Source: a virus
IMG/VR virus record: IMGVR_UViG_3300005264_000044
Coordinates: 1 to 29,991 of that record
Length of the DNA stretch: 29,991 nucleotides
Reading direction: 5' to 3' (one strand)
Position numbers and translations under genes: made by a program. Position 1 is the stretch's first letter. The number at the start of each line of letters is the position of its first letter. Positions 1,231 to 17,363 of the stretch are shown one piece after another. Under the pieces are notes generated by a model that ran no database searches, was not told where the DNA came from, and was given only the letters and a program-made list of their open reading frames with translations.

Positions 1231-1803
1231 ATGTTGAGATTAGTTAGGGACGTAAAAGTAAGGAAGCCAAGGTATTTAAGGGGTAATTTAGTTTTAAAAA
1301 GAGTTGTTTTGGTGAAATTACCCAAAATTTTAGCTTATTACAAGACTTTAGAGTGTAAAAGGGTACTTCAATTATATGGTTATAAGTATAGGCGTAAGAA
1401 TTGGGAGTATCTTCGTGAGCAAAAGAGAATTTGGACGAAAAAGGATCAAGAATTACGTAATTCTGGTTTAAAGCCTAAGCGTATTCGTGTTTATAAGCCT
1501 AAACGTATGAGTGGTACAAGAGAGACGAGAAATTGGTATCATAATAATAGGTATAGTGAGAATAGTTATGTAAGGTACAAGATTCAGAACACGTCATTGT
1601 ATGTAAACAGTAATGTAAAAGAGAAAAAAAAATTATTATTTAACGATCTTGATTATTTACGTGATTTTAGTAAACGAGTAAGTACAAGGTATTTTAGGAA
1701 AAACAAGAATATATCTGGTGAGAAAAAGAGGTTAATTAAGAGAAGTTTATTATATTTTAAGGAAAAAGAAGAAGTACAAACTGATGGGGTTATTGAAGTA
1801 TGA
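1231..1803 (+). CDS. Basic hypothetical protein between terS and terL
   Basis: This 190-residue protein is rich in lysine, arginine and tyrosine along its whole length, with no recognisable domain, signal peptide or membrane segment. Its stop overlaps the large terminase start (ATGA-type overlap at 1800-1803), so the two are probably translationally coupled. The ribosome site is weak (AAAAAGG near 1216-1222). A nucleic-acid-binding or packaging-accessory role would suit the charge and position, but this is inference only. Confidence 0.6.
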   Translation: MLRLVRDVKVRKPRYLRGNLVLKRVVLVKLPKILAYYKTLECKRVLQLYGYKYRRKNWEYLREQKRIWTKKDQELRNSGLKPKRIRVYKPKRMSGTRETRNWYHNNRYSENSYVRYKIQNTSLYVNSNVKEKKKLLFNDLDYLRDFSKRVSTRYFRKNKNISGEKKRLIKRSLLYFKEKEEVQTDGVIEV

Positions 1804-4664
1804 AAAAACCGAATATAATTTGGCAACCGTTTCCTGGTAGTCAAACAAAGTTCTTGTCTTGTCCTGTTTGGGAGTGTTTATATACAGGAAGTCGCGGAAA
1901 CGGGAAGAAAATTCCCAACTATTCTAAGGTGTTATGTAAATCAGGTTATAAAAGAATTGATGAATTAATACTTGGGGAGTTAGTGTATTCAAGTGATGGT
2001 AATTTGTATCCTGTAACAGGTATTTTCCCACAAGGTATATCCAGAATTTATAATGTTGTATTTCAGGATAAACGTATTAGTAAAACAGGTGATGAACATC
2101 TTTGGTTAGTACGTGATAGACAGCAAAAAATGAGTGTTGTTAGTACTATACAGATGTACCCGAAAATAAAAACAGGAAAGCCTGGAAAATATGAATACAA
2201 ATATAAAGTACCTAATTGTAAGCCTATACAGTATCCAGAAGTACAATTACCGCTTGATCCGTATATGTTAGGTTGTTTAATTAGTGAGGGGTCATTAACA
2301 TTAAAGACACCAAGATTAGCAACATCAAATCAATTTATATTAGATTATTTTAAGAAAAAATTACCTGAATTTGAAATTAAAAAACAAGAAGATGGAAATG
2401 TTAATCACACGATTGTTGATAAAAATAAAACAGGTGATTATTTTCCATCTGTTCCCAAAAGAGATTATGCTTATTCACGTAATAGATTAAATGAAGTTAT
2501 TGAATTTTTAGGGTTAAACGTCACTTGCAAGTTTAAATTTATTCCTGATATGTATAAAACAGCATCCGTACAGCAAAGGTTAGATTTATTATGTGGTTTA
2601 ATGGACACTGATGGGTGTATCACTACAGGTGGGCATGCTGAATTTACATCTTCAAGTAAAGTTTTAATAAATGACGTGAAAAATTTATGTAGAAGTCTTG
2701 GAATACGCTGTCAATTATCTTATGATAAACGTATTGGAAGAAAACATGAAATTAAAGGTGTATCTTGTACATATAAAAATAAAATTTATCGTTTATTTAT
2801 AAACACAAAACAAATAATTGCTAAAGATCCTAAAAAGATACAGCGTTGTTTAAAAAAGCCTGAAACAATATCTCAAAAATATATTAGTATAGTTGATATT
2901 GAAAAGACAGAAGAATTTACAGACATGACTTGTATAAGTGTAGATAGTCCCGATAATACATTTATCATAGATGATTTTGTAGTAACACATAATACAGATT
3001 GTTTGGTCATGGATTATTTACAAGACGTGGGAAAAGGATATGGTGCAGATTATCGTGGATTAATTTTAAGAGAAGCAACAACGGAACTTGAAGATGTTAT
3101 TGCTAAGACGAAAAAATGGATTCCACTAATATTTCCAACTGCTAAATTTAATAACACTAAAAAGGTATGGACATTTAAAGATGGTGAGACATTACGGTTA
3201 AGTTATGCAAGAACTTTGTCTGACTACTTTAATTTCCACGGCTGGGAAATTTCATTTTGTGGTTTCGAGGAATTGACATCATGGGCGTTTCCTGAATTAT
3301 ATTTAAAGTTAATGAGTATAAATAGATGTTCTAACCCTAAAGTACCTAAAAAGTATAGGGCTACTTGTAATTCAAGTGGACCTGGGTTTGGTTGGGTAAA
3401 AGAACGTTTTATAAATTCAGGCAAACCTGGAGAAGTTATTACAGACGAGCAAGGTATGGAAAGAACATACGTAATGGGTATGTTAGATGAGAATAAGGCT
3501 TTATTAGAGGCTGATCCTCAATATAAAGCTAAGTTAGAAAGTATGACAAAAGATGACGATTTATTGTATAAGTCTTGGGTATTAGGTTCTTGGGATTTAA
3601 TAATGGGTGGATTCTTTACTGATGTTTGGAGACCTAAAATTCATGTATTAAAGCATTTTACTATTCCTAAGTCTTGGCATTTATATAGAAGTTTTGATTG
3701 GGGTTCGTCAAAACCTTGGGCTGTAACGTATATTGCTGAATCAAATGGTGAGCAACCAAAAGGTGATAATTTACCTTATATTCCAAGAGGTTCTTGCATT
3801 ATTGTAAATGAAATATATGGTTGGAACGGTAAAGTTAATCAAGGTGATATGGCAACATCACAAGAAATATCTGAACGTGTTTTACAAGTTGACAGGAATA
3901 TGTTAATAGAATATGGTATTAAATGTATGCCGGGACCTGCTGATACATCTATTTGGGATGTGCGAGATGGTAGTTCTATTGCAAATAATTTAGCCAGTCA
4001 TGGTTGTCATTGGACACGAGCATATAAAGGAAGTGGGTCAAGAATTGCTGGTTGGTCTTTAATTAGGCAAATGTTGGGTGCAGCGAAAAGGCAGGATTTA
4101 GAATCCCCACATTTATATTTTTTTGAGCAAGCCAAGCATCATATTAGAACATTACCTATGATGCAACGTGATCAGAAAAAACCTGAAGATCTTGCAACCG
4201 AGGGGGAGGACCACTGTTTTGCATATGATACTGAAATTATAACATCTAAAGGTATTGAAAAAATAGGTGATTTAGTAGGAACAACAGGAAAAGTATTAAC
4301 TTTAAATAATTTTTATACTGATTTTTATTCTTGTAGATTAATTAAAAAACAAGTAAAGATGTTAAAAGTAACATTTACTGATTATAGTTCTTATAATTGC
4401 ACACCAGATCATAAATTTTTTACAACAAAAGGTTTAATTGAAATACAATATTTAGATAAGAATACAGAATTTATAGAATCGGTTTTAAAAATAAAGAAGA
4501 TAGAACCATGTGAGGAATTACAAGATAGTTATTGTTTAGAAGCTAAAGATACACATGTTTTTGCATTAAGTAATGGTGTGATAGTAGCCAATTGCATGGA
4601 CTCTATGAGATACGGACTTGCAAGGAAAATGACAAGGATAAAACGTAAGAAAGTACGTATATAA
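1800..4664 (+). CDS. terL: Terminase large subunit precursor with two inteins
   Basis: This is the ATPase-nuclease motor that pumps DNA into the prohead through the portal and cuts it to length. The precursor has 954 residues. Removing the two inteins (37-398 and 806-931) leaves 466 residues, normal for this family. Extein motifs: Walker A reads GSRGNGK (30-36) joined to T399; Walker B ends in FEE (E490, E491); a coupling motif follows at CNSSGPG. In the C-terminal nuclease, D633 (SFDWG), D715 (GPADTS) and D934 (EDH-CMDSMRYG) give the RNase H-like acidic triad. Both inteins therefore interrupt active-site motifs, so splicing should be required for packaging. The start overlaps the preceding gene. 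Confidence 0.93.
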   Translation: MKKPNIIWQPFPGSQTKFLSCPVWECLYTGSRGNGKKIPNYSKVLCKSGYKRIDELILGELVYSSDGNLYPVTGIFPQGISRIYNVVFQDKRISKTGDEHLWLVRDRQQKMSVVSTIQMYPKIKTGKPGKYEYKYKVPNCKPIQYPEVQLPLDPYMLGCLISEGSLTLKTPRLATSNQFILDYFKKKLPEFEIKKQEDGNVNHTIVDKNKTGDYFPSVPKRDYAYSRNRLNEVIEFLGLNVTCKFKFIPDMYKTASVQQRLDLLCGLMDTDGCITTGGHAEFTSSSKVLINDVKNLCRSLGIRCQLSYDKRIGRKHEIKGVSCTYKNKIYRLFINTKQIIAKDPKKIQRCLKKPETISQKYISIVDIEKTEEFTDMTCISVDSPDNTFIIDDFVVTHNTDCLVMDYLQDVGKGYGADYRGLILREATTELEDVIAKTKKWIPLIFPTAKFNNTKKVWTFKDGETLRLSYARTLSDYFNFHGWEISFCGFEELTSWAFPELYLKLMSINRCSNPKVPKKYRATCNSSGPGFGWVKERFINSGKPGEVITDEQGMERTYVMGMLDENKALLEADPQYKAKLESMTKDDDLLYKSWVLGSWDLIMGGFFTDVWRPKIHVLKHFTIPKSWHLYRSFDWGSSKPWAVTYIAESNGEQPKGDNLPYIPRGSCIIVNEIYGWNGKVNQGDMATSQEISERVLQVDRNMLIEYGIKCMPGPADTSIWDVRDGSSIANNLASHGCHWTRAYKGSGSRIAGWSLIRQMLGAAKRQDLESPHLYFFEQAKHHIRTLPMMQRDQKKPEDLATEGEDHCFAYDTEIITSKGIEKIGDLVGTTGKVLTLNNFYTDFYSCRLIKKQVKMLKVTFTDYSSYNCTPDHKFFTTKGLIEIQYLDKNTEFIESVLKIKKIEPCEELQDSYCLEAKDTHVFALSNGVIVANCMDSMRYGLARKMTRIKRKKVRI
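1908..2993 (+). mobile_element. Class 3-like intein with LAGLIDADG domain in TerL Walker A
   Basis: This in-frame 362-residue insertion (residues 37-398) splits the Walker A motif exactly between GNGK and T399. Its first residue is lysine (KIPNYSKVL), not Cys, Ser or Ala, so the usual first acyl shift is impossible. It carries what look like the three class 3 markers: Trp102 in block B (GDEHLW), Cys378 in block F (DMTCISVDSPD) and Thr396 in the terminal VVTHN, followed by extein Thr399. Known class 3 inteins start splicing from the block F Cys. Two dodecapeptide motifs, LGCLISEG (157-164) and CGLMDTDG (265-272), mark a LAGLIDADG homing endonuclease with both acidic residues kept. Confidence 0.88.
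4215..4592 (+). mobile_element. Mini-intein in the TerL nuclease domain
   Basis: This 126-residue insertion (residues 806-931) begins CFAYDTEIITSKG, a classic block A with Cys1. It has block B with TPDH (CTPDHKFF), block F (YCLEAKDTHVFAL) and ends VIVAN before extein Cys932. No endonuclease domain is present, and the size is that of a minimal splicing domain. The penultimate residue is Ala instead of the usual His, a known variation that may slow Asn cyclisation. It interrupts the nuclease motif EDH-CMDSMRYG. A free-standing HNH gene begins 140 bases downstream and might provide homing. Confidence 0.87.
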
Positions 4665-4731: not shown

Positions 4732-5367
4732 ATGAGAGTGTACATGAAAAAGGTTACGGTTATTTCTGATACAAAGCAAAAGTTTAATGGTATTGTCTAT
4801 TATAAGTGTGGAGAGTATTTTCAAAAAAATGATAAAAGATTACATAGAAAAGTGTGGTTATATCATTTTGGTAAAATACCAAAAGGATTATGCATACACC
4901 ATATAGATGAAAATAAAGAAAATAATCAAATTGATAACTTGTCATTAATGACAAAAAAGAAACATACAAATTTACACTTATTTGGAAAACCAAAACAATT
5001 ATCAGAAAAGTGTTTACTTGAAGCAGCAAAATGGCATAAAAGTAAAGAGGGTAAAGAATGGCACAAAGAACATTATGAAGAAAACAAGGATAATCTTCAT
5101 AAGGATCATAAAAGGTATTGCATGAATTGTGATAAACGTATTCTTTCAAGACGTAAGAATCAAAACACATTTTGTTCTGGTGCTTGTAAAACAAAATATA
5201 GAAGAAGACAAGGATTAGATAATATTGAAAAAGAATGTGAGATTTGTTCTACTTTATTTACCAGCAATAAATATGATAAAACAAAAACATGTTCTCGTAA
5301 GTGCACAATGAAATTAATTTCACGTAAAAAATTAATAAAGTTAAATAAAAAAGGAAAAGTATTATGA
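4732..5367 (+). CDS. Free-standing HNH homing endonuclease
   Basis: Likely a site-specific DNA endonuclease. The N-terminal half holds the HNH (ββα-metal) fold typical of phage-borne enzymes: LHRKVWLYHFGKIP, then the HHID core (about residues 61-64), then N..NNQIDNLSLMT and H..LH. The C-terminal half has two Cys4 zinc-knuckle-like groups (C-x2-C ... C-x3-C, about residues 126-150 and 168-191), probably for DNA contact. ATG 4732 has no ribosome site; ATG 4744 (MKKVTVIS) follows GAGAGTG and may be the true start. Its stop overlaps the portal start by 4 bases, so it is embedded in the packaging operon. AAA-rich codon use matches the inteins and other endonucleases here. Confidence 0.85.
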   Translation: MRVYMKKVTVISDTKQKFNGIVYYKCGEYFQKNDKRLHRKVWLYHFGKIPKGLCIHHIDENKENNQIDNLSLMTKKKHTNLHLFGKPKQLSEKCLLEAAKWHKSKEGKEWHKEHYEENKDNLHKDHKRYCMNCDKRILSRRKNQNTFCSGACKTKYRRRQGLDNIEKECEICSTLFTSNKYDKTKTCSRKCTMKLISRKKLIKLNKKGKVL

Positions 5368-7086: not shown

Positions 7087-7860
7087 ATGGATTTTACATT
7101 TATCACAGATGAAGAATTAAGAAAAAAGGCTATTGAGGCACATGAGTCAGAAATGGCGGAAATTAAAGATACAATGAAAACAGAATTTAAAAGTGATATG
7201 CAATCAGCTATTGATGAAGCTGTACAAGGCTTAAAGTCTAAAAACAATGAACTTTTAGATGAAAAAAAGAAAATATCTTCTACATTGAAAAATTTTGAAG
7301 ATATTGATCCTGAAAAAGCAAAAGAGGCATTAAAATTTTTAGAAGAAAATGAAGATGCAAGATTAATTCGAGATGGTAAAATTGATGAACTACTTGATAG
7401 GCGTACATCTCAAATGAGATCTGATCATGAAGCAAAAACAAAAGAAATTAGTGATGAACTATTAAAAGCAACTCAACAAGGAACTTTGTATGAAGGATTA
7501 TATAAAGCAAAAATTGTTGAAGATGCCATACGTGCTGAAGCACATAAAGCAAAAGTACGACCAGAAGCTATTAAGGATATTTTATTACGAGGAAAAAGTG
7601 TTTTTTCTTTAAGTGAAGATGGAAAAACAGTTGAATCAAGAGATAAAAATACTGGTAAATTAACTAAAACAGCAGACGATAAAGTTTTGACAACTACTAA
7701 TTGGCTTGAAGGATTAAAAAAAGAGTCACCACATTATTGGATGCAATCTAATTCTGCAAATGCTTATGGAAACCATAATACTGGTGATCGAAATGAAGCT
7801 ATGATTAGAGCAGCAAATTCTGGTGATATGGAGGCATTCCGAAAACTTAGAGAAAAATAA
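7087..7860 (+). CDS. Capsid scaffolding protein
   Basis: Likely the internal scaffold that nucleates and shapes the prohead and is then removed. The 257 residues are highly charged and mostly helical, with probable coiled coil in residues 10-75 and 90-150 (heptad-like spacing of Leu/Ile/Ala among Glu/Lys). The C-terminal segment (about 205-257) is less regular and ends in basic, helix-forming KLREK, as in scaffolds that bind coat through a basic C-terminal helix. A very strong ribosome site, AGGAGGAGG, is centred about 10 bases before the ATG, fitting high expression. Its place after portal and before coat is standard. No catalytic protease residues are apparent. Confidence 0.8.
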   Translation: MDFTFITDEELRKKAIEAHESEMAEIKDTMKTEFKSDMQSAIDEAVQGLKSKNNELLDEKKKISSTLKNFEDIDPEKAKEALKFLEENEDARLIRDGKIDELLDRRTSQMRSDHEAKTKEISDELLKATQQGTLYEGLYKAKIVEDAIRAEAHKAKVRPEAIKDILLRGKSVFSLSEDGKTVESRDKNTGKLTKTADDKVLTTTNWLEGLKKESPHYWMQSNSANAYGNHNTGDRNEAMIRAANSGDMEAFRKLREK

Positions 7861-7899: not shown

Positions 7900-7937
7900 T
7901 TGACATTAAGATATTTTTACATTAATATCTTAATGTC
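7900..7937 (+). promoter_or_regulatory. Promoter overlapped by a 13-bp palindrome
   Basis: TTGACA (7900-7905), a 17-base spacer and TAATAT (7923-7928) form a near-consensus promoter. A perfect 13-bp inverted repeat (7902-7914 with 7925-7937, 10-base loop) covers almost the whole element. It may be a protein operator, or a terminator for the scaffold transcript, although no long T run follows. It would drive the lysine-rich gene at 7981. Confidence 0.6.
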
Positions 7938-7980: not shown

Positions 7981-8190
7981 ATGGCAGCAAAAAAGAAACC
8001 CGTAGCGAAAAAGAAACCTGTAGCTAAAAATGCAAAAGCTGTAGCTAAAAATGCAAAAGCTGGTAAAGGAAACCCATTTGCAAAAGTGGCTAATGCAGGA
8101 AAAAACCCATTTGCAAAAAAAGCAGATATTAAAAAGAATCTTGCTCTTGCTAAGAAGAAAAAAGCAAAGGCGGGAAATAAGAAAAAATAA
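7981..8190 (+). CDS. Lysine-rich repeat protein (69 aa)
   Basis: A very basic, low-complexity protein: about 40% lysine and many alanines, built of short repeats (AKKKPV twice, AKNAKA twice, NPFAK twice). The composition is like histone H1 tails or bacterial basic nucleoid proteins, so binding to nucleic acid is a fair inference. No enzyme motif is present. It has its own near-consensus promoter (7900-7928) and a good ribosome site (AAAGGAAAG) before the ATG. It sits between scaffold and coat genes, next to a candidate structured RNA. It could be packaged with DNA, coat an RNA, or neutralise charge during assembly. The function is unknown. Confidence 0.75.
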   Translation: MAAKKKPVAKKKPVAKNAKAVAKNAKAGKGNPFAKVANAGKNPFAKKADIKKNLALAKKKKAKAGNKKK

Positions 8191-8250
8191 GAAGATTATA
8201 AAGTCAAATAAAATAAAGTTACAAAAGTTACAAAAAAACTATAATATTAC

Positions 8251-8278
8251 TTGACTTTATAAAAGAACGTGGTATAAC
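8251..8278 (+). promoter_or_regulatory. Promoter of the candidate non-coding RNA
   Basis: TTGACT (8251-8256), a 16-base spacer and TATAAC (8273-8278). The expected start, about 7 bases downstream, is 8285, the first base of a perfect 12-bp helix. No protein gene starts for 750 bases after it, which argues for an RNA product. Confidence 0.65.
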
Positions 8279-8284
8279 ACTGAT

Positions 8285-8910
8285 ACTTACTTTTGGAGTT
8301 GGGTTTCATTTCGTCTTACCAACGTTAAATTCAATAAGTCGATATAAGCCAAAAGTAAGTTTCTTATTTGTAGCCCCTGCTGAAATAATCTGTTATATTG
8401 TTTTAACGGTGATGCGTAATATAACAGTGAAATTTAAACTTGGAATCGTCTATTGACGTGAAATGACAGCTAAAGCCCCAGGGTATCGGTAGTGCCGATC
8501 AAACCACTTGGGAATTGAAATATTCCCTTTACTCGTGTAGCCTCTTTGCATTAACATAAATAAGAGGGAGTGACTTCTTAGGCAGAAGAGAAACAGTCAG
8601 TGGATAAATTACAAAATATAAGAACCTATAGATTACATAACTAATAATCGTTTAAAGATTTTTTATGCATGTTTTATTATTTTACATGTTAATTTATTTA
8701 AGTAGCTTAGTTGTTTATATGAGTTGTATATAAATTTGCAGTATAAGCTGTATAAACTATTTAAATAAATTAACATATATTATATATAATATTAATAAAA
8801 AATAAAAGTTCAGCAAAACTCTTGCACTTCTAAGTGAGTGAGATAAGATGGGGCGGAGCTTTGCCCTTCCTTGTTCTAATCAAATAATCTCTTATTTTTT
8901 TATTAATATA
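8285..8910 (+). ncRNA. Candidate large structured non-coding RNA (about 625 nt)
   Basis: No credible reading frame lies here, but inverted repeats cover most of the stretch. Helices seen: 8285-8296 with 8349-8360 (12 bp, perfect) enclosing 8298-8302/8319-8323; 8390-8399/8418-8427 (10 bp); 8447-8450/8455-8458; a three-part hairpin at 8477-8512 around 8485-8489/8495-8499; 8541-8546/8562-8567; 8574-8578/8584-8588; 8688-8705/8757-8774 (18 bp with one G-U) enclosing 8714-8720/8728-8734; and 8790-8805/8892-8908 (16 bp, one bulge) enclosing a GC-rich hairpin around 8850-8867. A T7 run (8895-8901) in the last helix may mark the 3' end. Size and phage context recall ROOL and GOLLD RNAs, but I cannot confirm homology. 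The 3' limit is uncertain. Confidence 0.68.
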
Positions 8911-8912
8911 GT

Positions 8913-8941
8913 TTGACAATAAGTAAAAACAATGTTAATTA
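8913..8941 (+). promoter_or_regulatory. Promoter of the first Vsr-like endonuclease gene
   Basis: TTGACA (8913-8918), a 17-base spacer and TAATTA (8936-8941). The expected start near 8948 coincides with the first base of a 7-bp helix in the leader. Confidence 0.5.
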
Positions 8942-8947
8942 CTCTTT

Positions 8948-9002
8948 GTGTGGATAGAGCTGTACACTCGAACGGTTTAGCACCTTACTAAACCTTCCAC
9001 AC
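8948..9002 (+). promoter_or_regulatory. Three-way-junction RNA leader before the endonuclease
   Basis: A closing 7-bp helix (8948-8954 with 8996-9002) encloses a small hairpin (GAG 8957-8959 with CTC 8967-8969) and a perfect 7-bp, 7-nt-loop hairpin (8974-8980 with 8988-8994). It lies in the 5' leader, 20 bases before the AAAGGGG ribosome site. It may protect the mRNA 5' end or control translation. It superficially resembles a tRNA but lacks T-arm and anticodon features. Confidence 0.45.
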
Positions 9003-9036
9003 CTACTTTATTAAGGAAAGCTAAAGGGGCTTAATT

Positions 9037-10908
9037 TTGACACATACAAATCAAAGTAAAACAGATATTAAACAAAAGTCTTTTATCGAACGTTCTAAAA
9101 AAATCCACAACAATAAATACGATTATTCTAAAGTTGTTTATGTAAAAGCTAAACAGAAAGTAATCATTGTATGTCCCATTCATGGTGCATTTGAACAAAT
9201 ACCAACTTCACATATACTTCATCATGGTTGTCCTAAATGTGGAACTATATCAGCCAATAAAAAAAGAACAAAGTCTAAACAGTTGTTTCTTGAAAAAGCT
9301 AAAAAAATTCATAATAATAAATATGATTATTCTAAAGTTGTTTATAAAACAACTAAAGTAAAAGTAGTTATCACTTGTCCTATTCATGGTGATTTTTTAC
9401 AAAAACCAGCTTTGCATATTAAAAAACATGGTTGTCCTAAATGTGCACATGAGAAAACAAGTTTATTATATACAAGCACACAAAAGTCTTTCATTGAAAA
9501 AGCTAATAAAGTACATGGTAACAAGTATGACTATTCTTTAGTAAATTATATTAAATCTATTATAAAAGTGAAAATAGTATGTAAAATTCATGGTATTTTT
9601 GAACAAGCACCATCAGCACACCTTTCTGGACAAAACTGTCCTGAATGTACATTAATAAAACTTGCAAGCAAAAACCGAAAATCAATTACACAAGTACAAA
9701 GTGAACTTGTTAGTAAATACCCTGATTATTTATTTCCTTATATAGAAAAGGAGTATAAAAATAATAAAACAAATTTAACTGTTATTTGCAAAAAACATGG
9801 TACATCTCAAAGATCATTTAATGATTTATTAAGGAAAAATTTTGCATGTGCAAAATGTGGTATTGAAAAAAGAGCAAAAGAATCAAAATTAAGTGTTACT
9901 GAAATTATTAATAGAGCAAATTATTGTCATAATAATAAATACACATATCCATATTTAAAAGATGAGTACATTTCTTGCGATATTCCTGTAACGATTACAT
10001 GTAAAAAACACGGTGATTTCCAACAAAGGATTGCAAATCATATTTTTAATAAATCTGGTTGTCCTAAATGTACTTCTTATGCTAAAATATCTAAAGGAGA
10101 AAAAGAATTATTAGAATGGTTATCACAATATACAAATGTTGAAAGTTCTAATAGAAGTATTTTAAATGGAAAAGAAATAGATTTATACTTGCCTGATTAT
10201 AATGTAGGCATTGAATATAATGGTAATTATTTTCATTCGGAACAAAATCATGTTTTAAAAAATTATCATTTAAACAAAACAAAATTAGCAGAGGAAAAAG
10301 GTGTTTACTTATTACAGTTTTGGGAAACGGAATGTTTATGGCAAATGCCAATAGTAAAATCAATTATTTTAAGTTCTATTGGAAAATCACCAAAAATTAT
10401 TTTTGCAAGAAAATTACAAGTAAGAAATGTAACAACAAAAGAAGCCAGATATTTTTGTATGCAAAACCATATACACGGATTTAGAGGTGGTAATCAATAT
10501 ATAGGACTATATAAAGATACTGTTTTACTTTCTTTATTAATTATTTCAAGTAATGGAGAGGTTGTGCGTTTTGTTAATAAAATTTATTATAATATTCCTG
10601 GTGCTTTTTCTCGTTTATTATCATATGCAAAGAATGTTAAATTCTCTTTTGTAGATAGACGACTATTTACAGGTACATCATATACTAAATGTGGTTTTAT
10701 TTTTGAAAGAAATACAAAACCCAATTATTTTTATTGTCATAAAAATACAAGGAAACCTGAATCAAGAATTAAATATCAAAAACATAAACTTAAAAAGTTA
10801 CTACCATTGTTTGATCCTGAATTAACAGAGGTGCAAAATATGGTAAATAATGGTTTTTTTAGGATATTTGATTGTGGAAATAAGTATTTTACATATGTAA
10901 AGAAATAA
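9037..10908 (+). CDS. Zinc-module Vsr-like homing endonuclease
   Basis: Likely a free-standing homing endonuclease of the EDxHD (Vsr-related) family. The N-terminal 350 residues hold five tandem modules of about 65 residues with the pattern F..KA...H.NKYDYS.V.Y....KV.I.C..HG.F.Q.P..H....GCPKC; the two CxxC/CxxxHG groups of each suggest zinc-bound DNA-reading modules. Modules 1-3 are well conserved, 4 and 5 diverged. The nuclease domain follows: D382 (EIDLYLP), E393 (GIEYNG), H400 (YFHSE) and LLQFWETE, then a C-terminal domain with DRR.FTG. The start is TTG at 9037, 7 bases after AAAGGGG (9023-9029). A paralogue lies at 15404-17224. Confidence 0.85.
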   Translation: MTHTNQSKTDIKQKSFIERSKKIHNNKYDYSKVVYVKAKQKVIIVCPIHGAFEQIPTSHILHHGCPKCGTISANKKRTKSKQLFLEKAKKIHNNKYDYSKVVYKTTKVKVVITCPIHGDFLQKPALHIKKHGCPKCAHEKTSLLYTSTQKSFIEKANKVHGNKYDYSLVNYIKSIIKVKIVCKIHGIFEQAPSAHLSGQNCPECTLIKLASKNRKSITQVQSELVSKYPDYLFPYIEKEYKNNKTNLTVICKKHGTSQRSFNDLLRKNFACAKCGIEKRAKESKLSVTEIINRANYCHNNKYTYPYLKDEYISCDIPVTITCKKHGDFQQRIANHIFNKSGCPKCTSYAKISKGEKELLEWLSQYTNVESSNRSILNGKEIDLYLPDYNVGIEYNGNYFHSEQNHVLKNYHLNKTKLAEEKGVYLLQFWETECLWQMPIVKSIILSSIGKSPKIIFARKLQVRNVTTKEARYFCMQNHIHGFRGGNQYIGLYKDTVLLSLLIISSNGEVVRFVNKIYYNIPGAFSRLLSYAKNVKFSFVDRRLFTGTSYTKCGFIFERNTKPNYFYCHKNTRKPESRIKYQKHKLKKLLPLFDPELTEVQNMVNNGFFRIFDCGNKYFTYVKK

Positions 10909-10944: not shown

Positions 10945-10972
10945 TTGACAAACACATTTTGAATGTTAAAAT
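10945..10972 (+). promoter_or_regulatory. Promoter for the major capsid gene
   Basis: TTGACA (10945-10950), a 16-base spacer and TAAAAT (10967-10972). A leader of about 145 bases separates it from the coat protein start. The match is close to consensus, as suits the most abundant virion protein. Confidence 0.65.
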
Positions 10973-11010
10973 CAAACTTAGCATATAATTATTTCTGAGA
11001 AATGATTGCG

Positions 11011-11087
11011 AATTGACCTTCTGGGAGGGTCGGAATTTATGAATTTATGTGTTTATGTATTTTTAATTTCGATTCTCATAATCGAAA
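11011..11087 (+). promoter_or_regulatory. Two hairpins in the coat mRNA leader
   Basis: Hairpin one: 11015-11021 with 11025-11031 (7 bp, one G-U, 3-nt loop), extended by AATT on both sides. Hairpin two: 11067-11074 with 11080-11087 (8 bp, perfect, 5-nt loop). An AGGAGG site follows, a few bases before the ATG at 11124. They may stabilise the leader or act as processing sites. Confidence 0.5.
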
Positions 11088-11123
11088 ATTTATTATTATA
11101 ATTTTTAACAGGAGGAAATACGA

Positions 11124-12269
11124 ATGGCTAATTTGTGGGAACACCCATCAATAATTGCATCAGAGGCACTTAGGTTATTGCAGGATCAACTTACTATCGC
11201 TAAAATGTGTGTGATTGACAAAACATCAGACTTTTCCAATAAATCAAATGGTTGGGCTGTTGGTGACACTGTAAGTTTCAAAACTCATGGTGACTACGTG
11301 GTTGATGAATTTTCTGGTTCAATTAATGTTCAAGATATTACAGCGTCCAAACGATCAATGACAATAGAGAAGTTCTTTGACGTATCTGTTGCGTTTACAG
11401 CAAGAGAAGAGGCACTTGACTTAGACTCTCTTTCAGAACAAGTATTACAGCCAGCAACTTATCGTCTTGCTGAAAAAGTAGATACTTATCTTGGTACAAA
11501 AATCCTTCAAGGTGCAGGTCTTTATACATCTTCTGGTTTACTTGCAAATGCTGCTGATGTAGCACAGGCAAGAAAAGCTGCTACATTACAGCAGTTAGAT
11601 CAAAATAGATATTGTCTTGTTGATTTAGAGGCAGAGGCTTCACTATTGGGGCAAACTTGGTTTAATCAATCCCAAACTCGTGGTCAAGAGGGAACAACTA
11701 CATTAAGTACTGGTAATATGGGTCATATTATGGGTATGGATTTTAGTTCTTCTATAGCATTCCCAACAAATGATGCATCTCCTCATACGGCTGGAACTGG
11801 AACTGGAAGTACAAATAATGGTACATCTGATAATGGTATTGGATCGTCCACATTAGTATGTACAGCATTATCTGCTGGTCTTGCTGATGGTGATAGAATT
11901 AAAATTGCAGGACTTCGCCGACCATTAATAGTAAATGGTACTGTTGCATCAAGTGCTACATCTATTCCTTTGGTAGATCCTATTACAGAAATCATCCCTG
12001 ATGCTGCAGCTATTACAGTTATTGGTGCTGGTGATGATCTTACATTTCATGGTGCTATTTTTGATAATCGCTCTATTGCCGCCGCATTTCCTGTATTGGA
12101 TCAACCTGGTGGAAAAGAAGCAGCTACAGCATCAAATAATGGTGTCAGTATTCGTGTAGTAAAAGATTACAATATTTTAACTAAGAATACAACTATGTCT
12201 TTGGATGTTCTATGTGGTGCATTTATGCTCGATCCTCGTAGAGTAACTTTATTGGCAAATCAAGCGTAG
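11124..12269 (+). CDS. Major capsid protein (P22 coat-like)
   Basis: Likely the main shell protein of the head. The 381 residues open with MANLWEHPSIIASEALRLL, matching the start of the P22 gp5-type coat family, and keep the family layout: an N-terminal arm, then GDTVSFKTHGDYVV, and a C-terminal DYNILTKNTTMSLDVLCGAF segment. About residues 215-300 are a Gly/Ser/Thr-rich stretch followed by a β-rich insert (DGDRIKIAGLRRPL ... GTVASSATSIPL), probably a surface or insertion domain. A strong AGGAGG ribosome site, its own promoter and a structured leader suggest high expression. Codon use is more varied than in the nearby endonucleases. Confidence 0.9.
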   Translation: MANLWEHPSIIASEALRLLQDQLTIAKMCVIDKTSDFSNKSNGWAVGDTVSFKTHGDYVVDEFSGSINVQDITASKRSMTIEKFFDVSVAFTAREEALDLDSLSEQVLQPATYRLAEKVDTYLGTKILQGAGLYTSSGLLANAADVAQARKAATLQQLDQNRYCLVDLEAEASLLGQTWFNQSQTRGQEGTTTLSTGNMGHIMGMDFSSSIAFPTNDASPHTAGTGTGSTNNGTSDNGIGSSTLVCTALSAGLADGDRIKIAGLRRPLIVNGTVASSATSIPLVDPITEIIPDAAAITVIGAGDDLTFHGAIFDNRSIAAAFPVLDQPGGKEAATASNNGVSIRVVKDYNILTKNTTMSLDVLCGAFMLDPRRVTLLANQA

Positions 12270-15383: not shown

Positions 15384-15422
15384 TTATATGAAAAAGGTAG
15401 TTGTTATACCTTTTTCATATAA
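15384..15422. terminator. Bidirectional terminator-like hairpin
   Basis: A perfect 16-bp inverted repeat (15384-15399 with 15407-15422, 7-base loop) lies between the tail tube gene and the reverse-strand endonuclease. Each arm holds a run of five A or T, so it may end transcription from both sides. The endonuclease stop (15404-15406) lies in the loop, and its last codons are in the arm. Confidence 0.7.
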
Positions 15423-17224
15423 TAGCTACCACAATCAAAAACTTGATAATAACCATTGTTTTTCATATTTTGAATTTCTGTTAAATCAGGATTAAAATTA
15501 TTTAGCTTCTTTTTTAATTTGTGTTTTTGAAACATTTGTCGTGATCCAGCATAGCTACCACTTAAAACATAAAAATAATTTGGTGGTGTTACTCTTTCTA
15601 ATATAAATCCATTTTTAACATAACCATTTCCAGTAAAAACACGTCTATCCACAAAAGAATATTTTGTATTTGAATATTTTAAAAGTTTAGAAAAACCACC
15701 TGTAATATTCGTATTTATTTTATTGACAAATCTAAGCATTTCACCTGTTTTTGATGTTATCATTAATGATAAAAGTTCATCATTGTTATATAATCCCAAG
15801 TATTTACTTCCCGCACGAAAACCATTTAAATGATTACAAATACAAAAGGCTCTTGCTTCTTGTGTTTCTACTTGCTTTAGATTTAATTTTCTTGCAAAGT
15901 ATTTATGTTTTGTTTTGCCTATAGCATTTCGTATAATAGACTTTATAATGTTTGGTGAATTTTTCCACTCATAATCCCAAAAGTGCATTAAGTGGATACC
16001 TTGCTTTTGTGCTTGTATAGTTTTATTTAAATGATAATTTTTGTCTTCTTTGGTTCTTGTTGAGTGATAAAATAACCCATTGTATTCTATACCTATTTTA
16101 TATTTTGGTAATAGTATATCTATATCTTGGTTTCTTATTGGAAACTTTAAAAAACCAGTTGCATGTTTTGTTTTTACATCCAATGATTCAATCCATTTTT
16201 TTATTTCATTTTCTGCTTTAGATACTTGATGTGTACAAAAAGGACAACCTAAGCCAGAAACGTGTGAACCAGCCACTTGATCAAATTCACCATGTATTTT
16301 GCATACTATTTTTACTTTTTTTAGGCTTTTTATATAATCAACTTTTGAATAATCATATTTATTGTTATGTGTTTTATTAGCTTTTTCAATAAAAATAGTT
16401 GTTGTGTCAGTAAGTTTATTAGTGTTTTTGACAACACCACATTTAGGACAACCACTATTATTCAAGTGTCCATTTGGTGTTTGGTTGAACTCCCCATGTA
16501 TTTTACAAATGATAATTACATTTGTTGATGTATTTGTATAATTGACTTTTGAATAATCATATAAATCACCGTGTACTTTTTTAGCTTCGGTGATAAATTG
16601 TTTATTTGTTCTTTTAAATGTCCCAGAACAAATAATACAACCTTTTCCCATCATATGATTATTAGGTTGTTGTTGAAATACACCATGTTTTTTACAAATA
16701 ATTGCTACTTTATTTTGATTACCAGTATATTTTACTAATGAATAGTCGTATAAATTACCATGTACAATATTACTTTTTGTTATAAATTCTTGTGTTGATA
16801 ACTTATTTGCCTCATTTGATAGTACACCTTTACATTTTGGGCATGATCCCCTTCCTTTTAAGTGTGAATATGGTGTACATTTAAATTCTATTTTACATAT
16901 TGTACAAAATAGAGTTATTTTAGTATCCACATTTACATATTTTACTTTGTTGTATAAGAATTTATTACCATGTTTCTTTTTGGCTTCTAATATAAATTGC
17001 TTTTTACCCTTCTTGAGTTTATTACCCACACTATTATCACCACATAAAGGACAACCATTTCCTCTCATATGTGCATGTGGTATTTGTGAAAATACACCAT
17101 GTTCTTTGCAAATTATTTTCATCTTTGTCATACTATCTTTATATACTGATAGAGAATAATCGTACTTACTCCCATGTACGTTTTTACTTCGCTCTATAAC
17201 TATATCAGTTGTTAATCTTTTCAT
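15404..17224 (-). CDS. Second zinc-module Vsr-like homing endonuclease
   Basis: A paralogue of the gene at 9037, of 606 residues, with the same plan: five N-terminal zinc-type modules (patterns such as VHGSKYDYSL and CKEHGVFSQIPHAH..GNGCPLC), a PD-(D/E)XK-like Vsr nuclease domain (DIDILLP, GIEYNGLFYHS, LMHFWDYEW) and the shared C-terminal part (DRRVFTGNGY, QNMKNNGYYQVFDCG). Module 2 has a changed zinc group (C-T-I-C-K in place of CxxHG). The start at 17224 (MKRLTTD) is chosen because AAGGAG lies 4 bases before it; an upstream in-frame ATG at 17242 has no site. It overlaps the preceding small regulator gene and lies opposite to the tail operon. Confidence 0.85.
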   Translation of the reverse strand: MKRLTTDIVIERSKNVHGSKYDYSLSVYKDSMTKMKIICKEHGVFSQIPHAHMRGNGCPLCGDNSVGNKLKKGKKQFILEAKKKHGNKFLYNKVKYVNVDTKITLFCTICKIEFKCTPYSHLKGRGSCPKCKGVLSNEANKLSTQEFITKSNIVHGNLYDYSLVKYTGNQNKVAIICKKHGVFQQQPNNHMMGKGCIICSGTFKRTNKQFITEAKKVHGDLYDYSKVNYTNTSTNVIIICKIHGEFNQTPNGHLNNSGCPKCGVVKNTNKLTDTTTIFIEKANKTHNNKYDYSKVDYIKSLKKVKIVCKIHGEFDQVAGSHVSGLGCPFCTHQVSKAENEIKKWIESLDVKTKHATGFLKFPIRNQDIDILLPKYKIGIEYNGLFYHSTRTKEDKNYHLNKTIQAQKQGIHLMHFWDYEWKNSPNIIKSIIRNAIGKTKHKYFARKLNLKQVETQEARAFCICNHLNGFRAGSKYLGLYNNDELLSLMITSKTGEMLRFVNKINTNITGGFSKLLKYSNTKYSFVDRRVFTGNGYVKNGFILERVTPPNYFYVLSGSYAGSRQMFQKHKLKKKLNNFNPDLTEIQNMKNNGYYQVFDCGSYYMKKV

Positions 17225-17363
17225 AATTCTCCTTATAATCATTTAAAATTTTTCTTATTAATTCTGATTTATTCATTACTTTCTCATGTGCTAATTTTTT
17301 ATAAAATTGATCCACAAGAGGATTCAATCTTATATTTACGATTACCTTTGTTTGTTTTTTCAT
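17205..17363 (-). CDS. Ribbon-helix-helix regulator (52 aa)
   Basis: This small gene matches the Arc/CopG/MetJ fold. A basic N-terminal β-strand (KVIVNIRLN) is followed by two helices (PLVDQFYKKLAHEK and SELIRKILNDY), the second beginning with the usual NKSE cap. RHH proteins bind DNA as dimers through the strand. The ATG at 17363 has an AAAAGGAG ribosome site, and the endonuclease start lies inside its last 20 bases, so the two are translationally coupled. It may repress its own promoter (17394-17422) and so keep the endonuclease low. Confidence 0.8.
   Translation of the reverse strand: MKKQTKVIVNIRLNPLVDQFYKKLAHEKVMNKSELIRKILNDYKENYEKINN

Follow-up and report, generated by a model that had tools for sequence, protein, structure and literature searches.

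A gene-free, inverted-repeat-rich segment of an uncultured phage and the conserved leader RNAs beside it

The RNAs of the ROOL and GOLLD families, which are several hundred nucleotides (nt) long, phage-encoded and rich in helices, are widespread and often found near tRNA islands (PMC12286853). Phage introns of groups I and II are reported to carry homing endonucleases of the family discussed below (PMC12350094), and in T4 and Aeh1 a long transcript hides the ribosome-binding site (RBS) of the endonuclease gene, with I-TevI, I-TevII, I-TevIII, segB and mobE as examples (PMC2988022). Here, we followed up a gene-free segment, positions 8285–8910, that lies between the scaffold and coat genes, upstream of a homing endonuclease gene, in 29,991 nt (the window, meaning the whole stretch analyzed) of the IMG/VR record IMGVR_UViG_3300005264_000044 of an uncultured phage. 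A first-pass annotation had proposed this segment as a large structured RNA, either of a known class or new. We found that its helices are real and that the segment is an orphan; the data do not establish a large structured RNA. The structured RNAs that are conserved in this intergenic region fall outside the annotated coordinates, namely at 8947–9003, upstream of the endonuclease gene, and at 10977–11123, upstream of the coat gene. These two covariation-supported leaders beside the orphan segment are the main yield of the analysis, and the neighbors matter more than the segment itself.

When compared with the described systems, the segment resembles ROOL and GOLLD in size and number of helices but differs from them by having neither a covariance-model match nor homologues, and the window carries no tRNA gene. 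As in the phage introns (PMC12350094), a Vsr-type endonuclease lies beside a structured non-coding stretch; however, there is no intron core, no interrupted gene and no domain 5. A predicted long transcript that would hide the Shine-Dalgarno (SD) sequence, and a gene-near promoter that would open it, recall the RBS-sequestering leaders of T4 and Aeh1 (PMC2988022), yet those leaders use a local hairpin, whereas the pairing predicted here is long-range (~650 nt) and statistically only suggestive.

Helices, relatives and context of the orphan segment

The gene-free stretch, given as approximately 625 bases in the first-pass annotation, proved to be longer, as the open reading frame (ORF) listing contains no ORF of more than 37 amino acids (aa) that starts within the 846 nt from 8191 to 9036. 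Stop-masked six-frame translations of this stretch matched no PHROG below an E-value of 0.029, and a pseudogene or protein remnant at 8285–8910 was rejected on these grounds. The helices described earlier are present at their places (Table 1). Four perfect stems, each 10 bp or longer, were counted in the segment, compared with 0.26 in global and 0.48 in 50-nt block dinucleotide shuffles, and 0 of 200 shuffles reached this number; stems with at least 24 hydrogen bonds numbered three against an expectation of about 0.08. The minimum free energy (MFE) of the segment had a z-score of about −3 with global and block shuffles alike. Together with the ORF and PHROG results, these data bear out the earlier view of a non-coding stretch that folds beyond chance.

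Several observations nevertheless weaken its reading as an RNA. The reverse complement folds better against its own shuffles (z about −4) than the plus strand does, so the signal is one of inverted repeats, which favors no strand and does not show a plus-strand RNA. The 150-nt windows inside the segment were ordinary (z from +1.5 to −1.35), and 8285–8640 folded alone reached only −1.3; the fold of 8466–8512 gave −1.6. The promoter proposed at 8251–8278 is plausible by its sequence, but such sites occur here at chance frequency; its −35 box falls in a 12-bp inverted repeat with 8196–8207. If the segment were a large structured RNA in its own right, of a new class, transcribed from this promoter, acting in trans and located beside the endonuclease gene by chance, this would account for the four long perfect stems, the MFE and the missing gene; 8285–8910 would then be a separate unit, as the endonuclease gene apparently has a promoter and leader to itself that begin at 8913. 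Given that no homologue was found in any collection searched, that the opposite strand folds equally well or better, that the 150-nt windows are ordinary and that the promoter is at chance level, we consider this explanation rather unlikely. It is unlikely, too, that the segment encodes a large ornate RNA of an undescribed class that starts from the 8251 promoter and travels as cargo with a homing endonuclease insertion, a reading for which the stem excess is the one argument. A folding excess that is as strong on the other strand and is due largely to A+T helices would also fit ordinary A+T-rich intergenic DNA, whose palindromes act, if at all, on the DNA as operators or terminators and not as RNA, and inverted repeats occur at promoters both in this phage and in related ones. 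However, the stem excess survives the 50-nt block shuffles that keep local composition, and the 12-bp and 10-bp stems sit in the less A+T-rich part, which makes this explanation improbable as well. As a separate observation, TGAAAT occurs four times within 141 nt (8381, 8428, 8459 and 8516), and every copy follows a hairpin that is predicted or could form.

The known RNAs named in the first-pass annotation (ROOL and GOLLD as possible identities, raiA and group I and group II introns as models to scan) were not supported. Whole-library scans with Rfam 15, at the gathering cut-off and at E-values of 5–10, returned chance matches only and covered raiA. The ROOL model (RF03087) matched neither in these scans nor in the record at E ≤ 10 (a record search without positive control), and the best GOLLD (RF02032) match was a 24-nt stretch on the minus strand with 3.9 bits and an E-value of 2.9. 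Intron_gpI (core P3–P8) gave no match in the record at E ≤ 10, while control genomes did match, and neither RF00029 (group II domains 5–6, positive controls included) nor, in the library scans, any group II D1–D4 family was found. The segment is therefore outside the known large-RNA families, with ROOL, GOLLD and introns excluded as far as the models can do so.

Searches for homologues were likewise negative. No blastn homologue of 8285–8910 was present among 50,697 phage records and 72,556 plasmids, and in the whole records of 42 coat-related phages the best blastn matches were 14–25 nt long. Six exact IMG/VR probes (one 38-mer and five 15-mers) showed no extended similarity around the matches listed, and nhmmer and blastn searches of endonuclease loci yielded A+T noise only, with no comparable segment upstream of those endonucleases. 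Since no relative was found in the collections searched, the segment cannot yet be called a new RNA; homologues in metagenomes would make it testable at once.

The context of the segment is that of an insertion. In most coat relatives whose scaffold gene is present in the record, the gap between the scaffold and coat genes measures 169–330 nt, and others carry a homing endonuclease gene there, of the Vsr/DUF723 type (L005, L009, L027 and L028) or the HNH type (L021, L023 and L044). Here, the orphan segment lies in the gap between a Lys-rich ORF and the gene of a 623-aa homing endonuclease, and an intact coat promoter and leader follow. The orphan segment is absent from all coat relatives compared, and it belongs to the insertion between the two genes. 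The endonuclease gene could once have resided in a mobile element, for instance an intron of group I or II or an insertion since truncated, of which the segment would be the decayed rest. This phage is rich in homing elements: its large terminase contains a LAGLIDADG intein, and it has an HNH gene at 4732 and a second Vsr-type endonuclease at 15404–17242. With no Intron_gpI or Intron_gpII match in the record even at an E-value of 10, no group II D1–D4 in the library scans, a coat gene and leader that are intact, so that no gene is interrupted, and no protein remnant, we give this origin a low probability.

A three-way junction upstream of homing endonuclease genes

The gene at 9037–10908 is, judged by its family match and its position between conserved phage genes, that of an EDxHD/Vsr-type homing endonuclease. 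The predicted protein combines DUF723 fingers with an EDxHD/Vsr-like C-terminal part; its Vsr-like active site was read from the motif, and no Vsr model matched. Its leader contains a three-way junction at 8947–9003 with the fold GUGUGGA-UA-GAG..CUC-GAA-C-GGUUUAG..CUAAACC-U-UCCACAC. A descriptor made from this sequence found the same junction in L005, L009, L021, L027, L044 and L094, along with one loose 86-nt match in L014. In a hand-made structural alignment, with N as padding, 97% of the cells pair and 36 two-sided changes were counted, compared with 10.6 after shuffling; these pair counts are biased towards structure, since the descriptor demanded pairing, and independent support comes from the reversed-sequence control, which gave zero matches, and from the later matches. 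Sliding the partner by 1–3 columns lowered the pairing to approximately 50–60%.

Model R2 recovered one copy outside its training set (L044 5371–5421), directly before an HNH gene. Within the family of the window's phage, all genes downstream of the junction encode HNH_3 or DUF723/Vsr endonucleases. Single-copy BLAST searches led to junction loci elsewhere in phages and plasmids, 13 of 16 of which are matched by model R3. According to annotation or Pfam, the genes downstream of these outside loci include NUMOD4 in an Exiguobacterium plasmid and the Flyfo siphovirus and a Seg-like/AP2 endonuclease in a Rhizobium phage; other outside loci precede short ORFs without assignment. Under strict filters, R3 matched 0 of 398 Pseudomonadota genomes, a result that says little.

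The junction first seemed new because Rfam missed the window copy, and the Rfam search of the wider relatives then showed it to be int-alpA-like. Seven outside loci (L427, L438, L426 and L428–L431) pass the Rfam cut-off for int-alpA (RF02996), with R3 E-values of 2e-8 to 1e-4. In the window's own phage family, G028 carries at the same place (30218–30287) a copy that scores 39.9 bits against the RF02996 cut-off of 35.8 and that was part of the R2/R3 training set. For the copy in the window, RF02996 gives no match at all. The same covarying three-way junction, with its GGAUAG...GAA...UUCC core, links it to the accepted int-alpA members, as R3 finds loci that Rfam calls int-alpA. We conclude that the window junction is a divergent int-alpA relative and not a certified member. 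In addition to being missed by RF02996, it differs in that the junction, here and in the relatives, precedes homing endonuclease genes, whereas Rfam files the int-alpA RNA under the context that gave it its name, integrase/alpA. This int-alpA relative lies 30–45 nt upstream of unrelated types of homing endonuclease genes (Vsr/DUF723, HNH_3, NUMOD4 and AP2/Seg-like) and, in a few cases, of other genes of mobile elements, a placement that gives the RNA family a concrete gene partner. A hammerhead ribozyme, considered for the GAAA after stem II, was rejected by reading, as the CUGAUGA strand is missing.

Two matches stand apart. In the Cloacimonadota genome locus L423, the junction has iteron-like repeats on one side and on the other a gene whose product, by reading, is a plasmid initiator of the Rep_3 type, and a weak match (E-value 0.39) in an unrelated phage, L085 1824–1888, lies just upstream of a GIY-YIG (T5orf172-like) ORF.

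Possible long and short endonuclease transcripts

The candidate promoter at 8913–8941 predicts a transcript start just before the three-way junction, and −10-like boxes precede the junction likewise in L005, L027, L094, L423 and L427, which suggests that the junction stands at the start of the transcript. Of the explanations compared, we favor, as a possible model, that 8285–8910 is a lineage-specific, non-coding and insertion-borne segment that would, if transcribed, form the upstream part of an SD-hiding endonuclease leader. A mobile insertion with the homing endonuclease gene may have brought or left the segment between the scaffold and coat genes. With transcription from near 8251, or with read-through, a long transcript of the endonuclease gene would begin with this segment, and AGCCCCT (8372–8378) would pair with the SD sequence AGGGGCT (9025–9031) and keep the gene silent. 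A promoter near 8913 would instead yield a short transcript that starts with the junction and leaves the SD more open, and the two could form a timing switch of the kind described for T4 I-TevI and Aeh1 mobE.

In the long transcript, the SD is predicted to pair with upstream sequence with a probability of 0.99, the mean of shuffles being 0.47, while in a predicted transcript from 8945, G9026 and G9027 are approximately 0.9 unpaired. GCCCC occurs only twice on the plus strand of the 30 kb, at the 8372–8378 site and at 8475, both in the orphan segment, and GGGGC is found at 8850 and in the SD. Weighing against this model, equally strong sequestration occurs in about 6% of shuffles and the SD complement itself is at the 90th percentile, so that the predicted pairing is only suggestive, and long-range folds of 750 nt are unreliable. 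Moreover, L005, L009 and L027 have endonuclease leaders that work in the absence of such a segment, and, with the three-way junction at the head of a separate leader, 8285–8910 need not belong to the endonuclease mRNA. Hairpins similar to the one that presents the SD in the window (9017–9032) are present in L005, L021, L027 and L044.

Table 1. Features of the scaffold–coat region of the window and junction copies in other loci
Feature	Position	Strand	Evidence or remark
Scaffold gene	7087–7860		phrog_206
Lys-rich 69-aa ORF	7981–8190	+	SD-like AAAGGAAAG; just upstream of orphan segment
Promoter-like TTGACT-16-TATAAC	8251–8278	+	sequence reading; predicted start near 8285
Orphan non-coding segment, inverted-repeat-rich	8285–8910	+	helix excess, MFE z, no Rfam match, no homologue
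12-bp helix 8285–8296/8349–8360 with inner 5-bp hairpin	8285–8360	+	fold z −2.5
AGCCCCT, complement of AGGGGCT at endonuclease SD	8372–8378	+	pairing probability 0.78–0.96
10-bp helix 8390–8399/8418–8427	8390–8427	+	stem search
Nested hairpin with G+C (CCCAG..CTTGGG, GGT..ACC, ATCGG-TAGTG-CCGAT)	8475–8512	+	sequence
16-bp A+T helix 8686–8701/8761–8776	8686–8776	+	stem search; longer if mismatches allowed
14-bp A+T helix 8789–8802/8896–8909 around G+C-containing hairpin 8850–8867	8789–8909	+	
Candidate endonuclease promoter	8913–8941	+	sequence reading; perfect −35 TTGACA, weak −10
Three-way-junction leader RNA related to int-alpA (RF02996)	8947–9003	+	models R2/R3, covariation
Small hairpin presenting SD, AAGC-TAAAGGG-GCTT	9017–9032	+	sequence; short-transcript fold pairs G9028–T9031
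Homing endonuclease gene, 623 aa, TTG start	9037–10908	+	phrog_559 E 1.5e-122; PF05265 (DUF723) E 3e-18
Coat-gene promoter TTGACA-16-TAAAAT	10945–10972	+	TTGAC promoter at same place in relatives
Conserved coat-gene leader RNA	10977–11123	+	hairpins 10987–11007 and 11015–11031; competing stem 11025–11037/11065–11077
Major coat protein gene	11124–12269		P22-like
Junction copies	L005 3099, L009 2189, L021 5301, L027 4319, L044 5371 and 9284		
Further junction copies	L094, L423, L424, L426–L431, L433, L434, L436–L438		

The coat-gene leader and neighboring elements

The second conserved RNA occupies the 140 nt before the coat gene, where the structure is conserved in at least 25 phages; the copies outside the window lie immediately before the coat gene in loci of the series L003–L044. 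The leader consists of a first hairpin with a YWGNG loop, a second hairpin with the same loop type (usually GACC-UUGGG-GGUC) and a segment able to pair with the 3' arm of the second hairpin. In the alignment, 96.8% of the cells of the hairpins are paired, with 26 two-sided changes compared with 7.2 in shuffled data; for the competing long-range stem, hairpin 1 included, 94.8% are paired and the two-sided changes number 33 against 10. Model R1 matches once per record and always at the coat gene, including loci outside its training set (L021, L024, L026 and L035). The library scans found no Rfam family match for the window's coat leader, a cis-regulatory RNA conserved among phages whose coat is P22-like. 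We would guess that it could be the site of coat autoregulation. R1 gave no match in 8285–8910; the hairpin at 8485–8499, which has a YWGNG loop, was rejected as a relative, since with 148 pentaloop hairpins chance alone would give one of this kind.

A second type of coat leader is found upstream of the coat gene in L016, L031, L034, L041, L043 and L216. It has UCCC...GGGA around a pair of hairpins whose loops read, for example, CAGAG or UAGAG, followed by AUCGGCCA, a logic that resembles that of the first type. The coat relatives in genome contigs (contigs of two metagenome-assembled genomes) pointed to no host. The Lys-rich ORF upstream of the orphan segment belongs to no family of Pfam or PHROG, and tblastn found nothing like it in phages.

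Elsewhere in the window, the large terminase ORF (1800–4664) contains an intein (Intein_splicing and LAGLIDADG_3), an HNH_3 gene spans 4732–5367 and the second homing nuclease gene (15404–17242, minus strand) is of the Vsr/DUF4379 type. A small ORF, ribbon-helix-helix-like by reading, precedes both this nuclease gene and the endonuclease gene of L011. Finally, inverted repeats lie on or beside TTGAC promoters in the window (7900–7937 and 8196–8262) and in L003, L006, L012, L018 and L042, and these repeats differ from phage to phage, as if they were lineage-specific operators.
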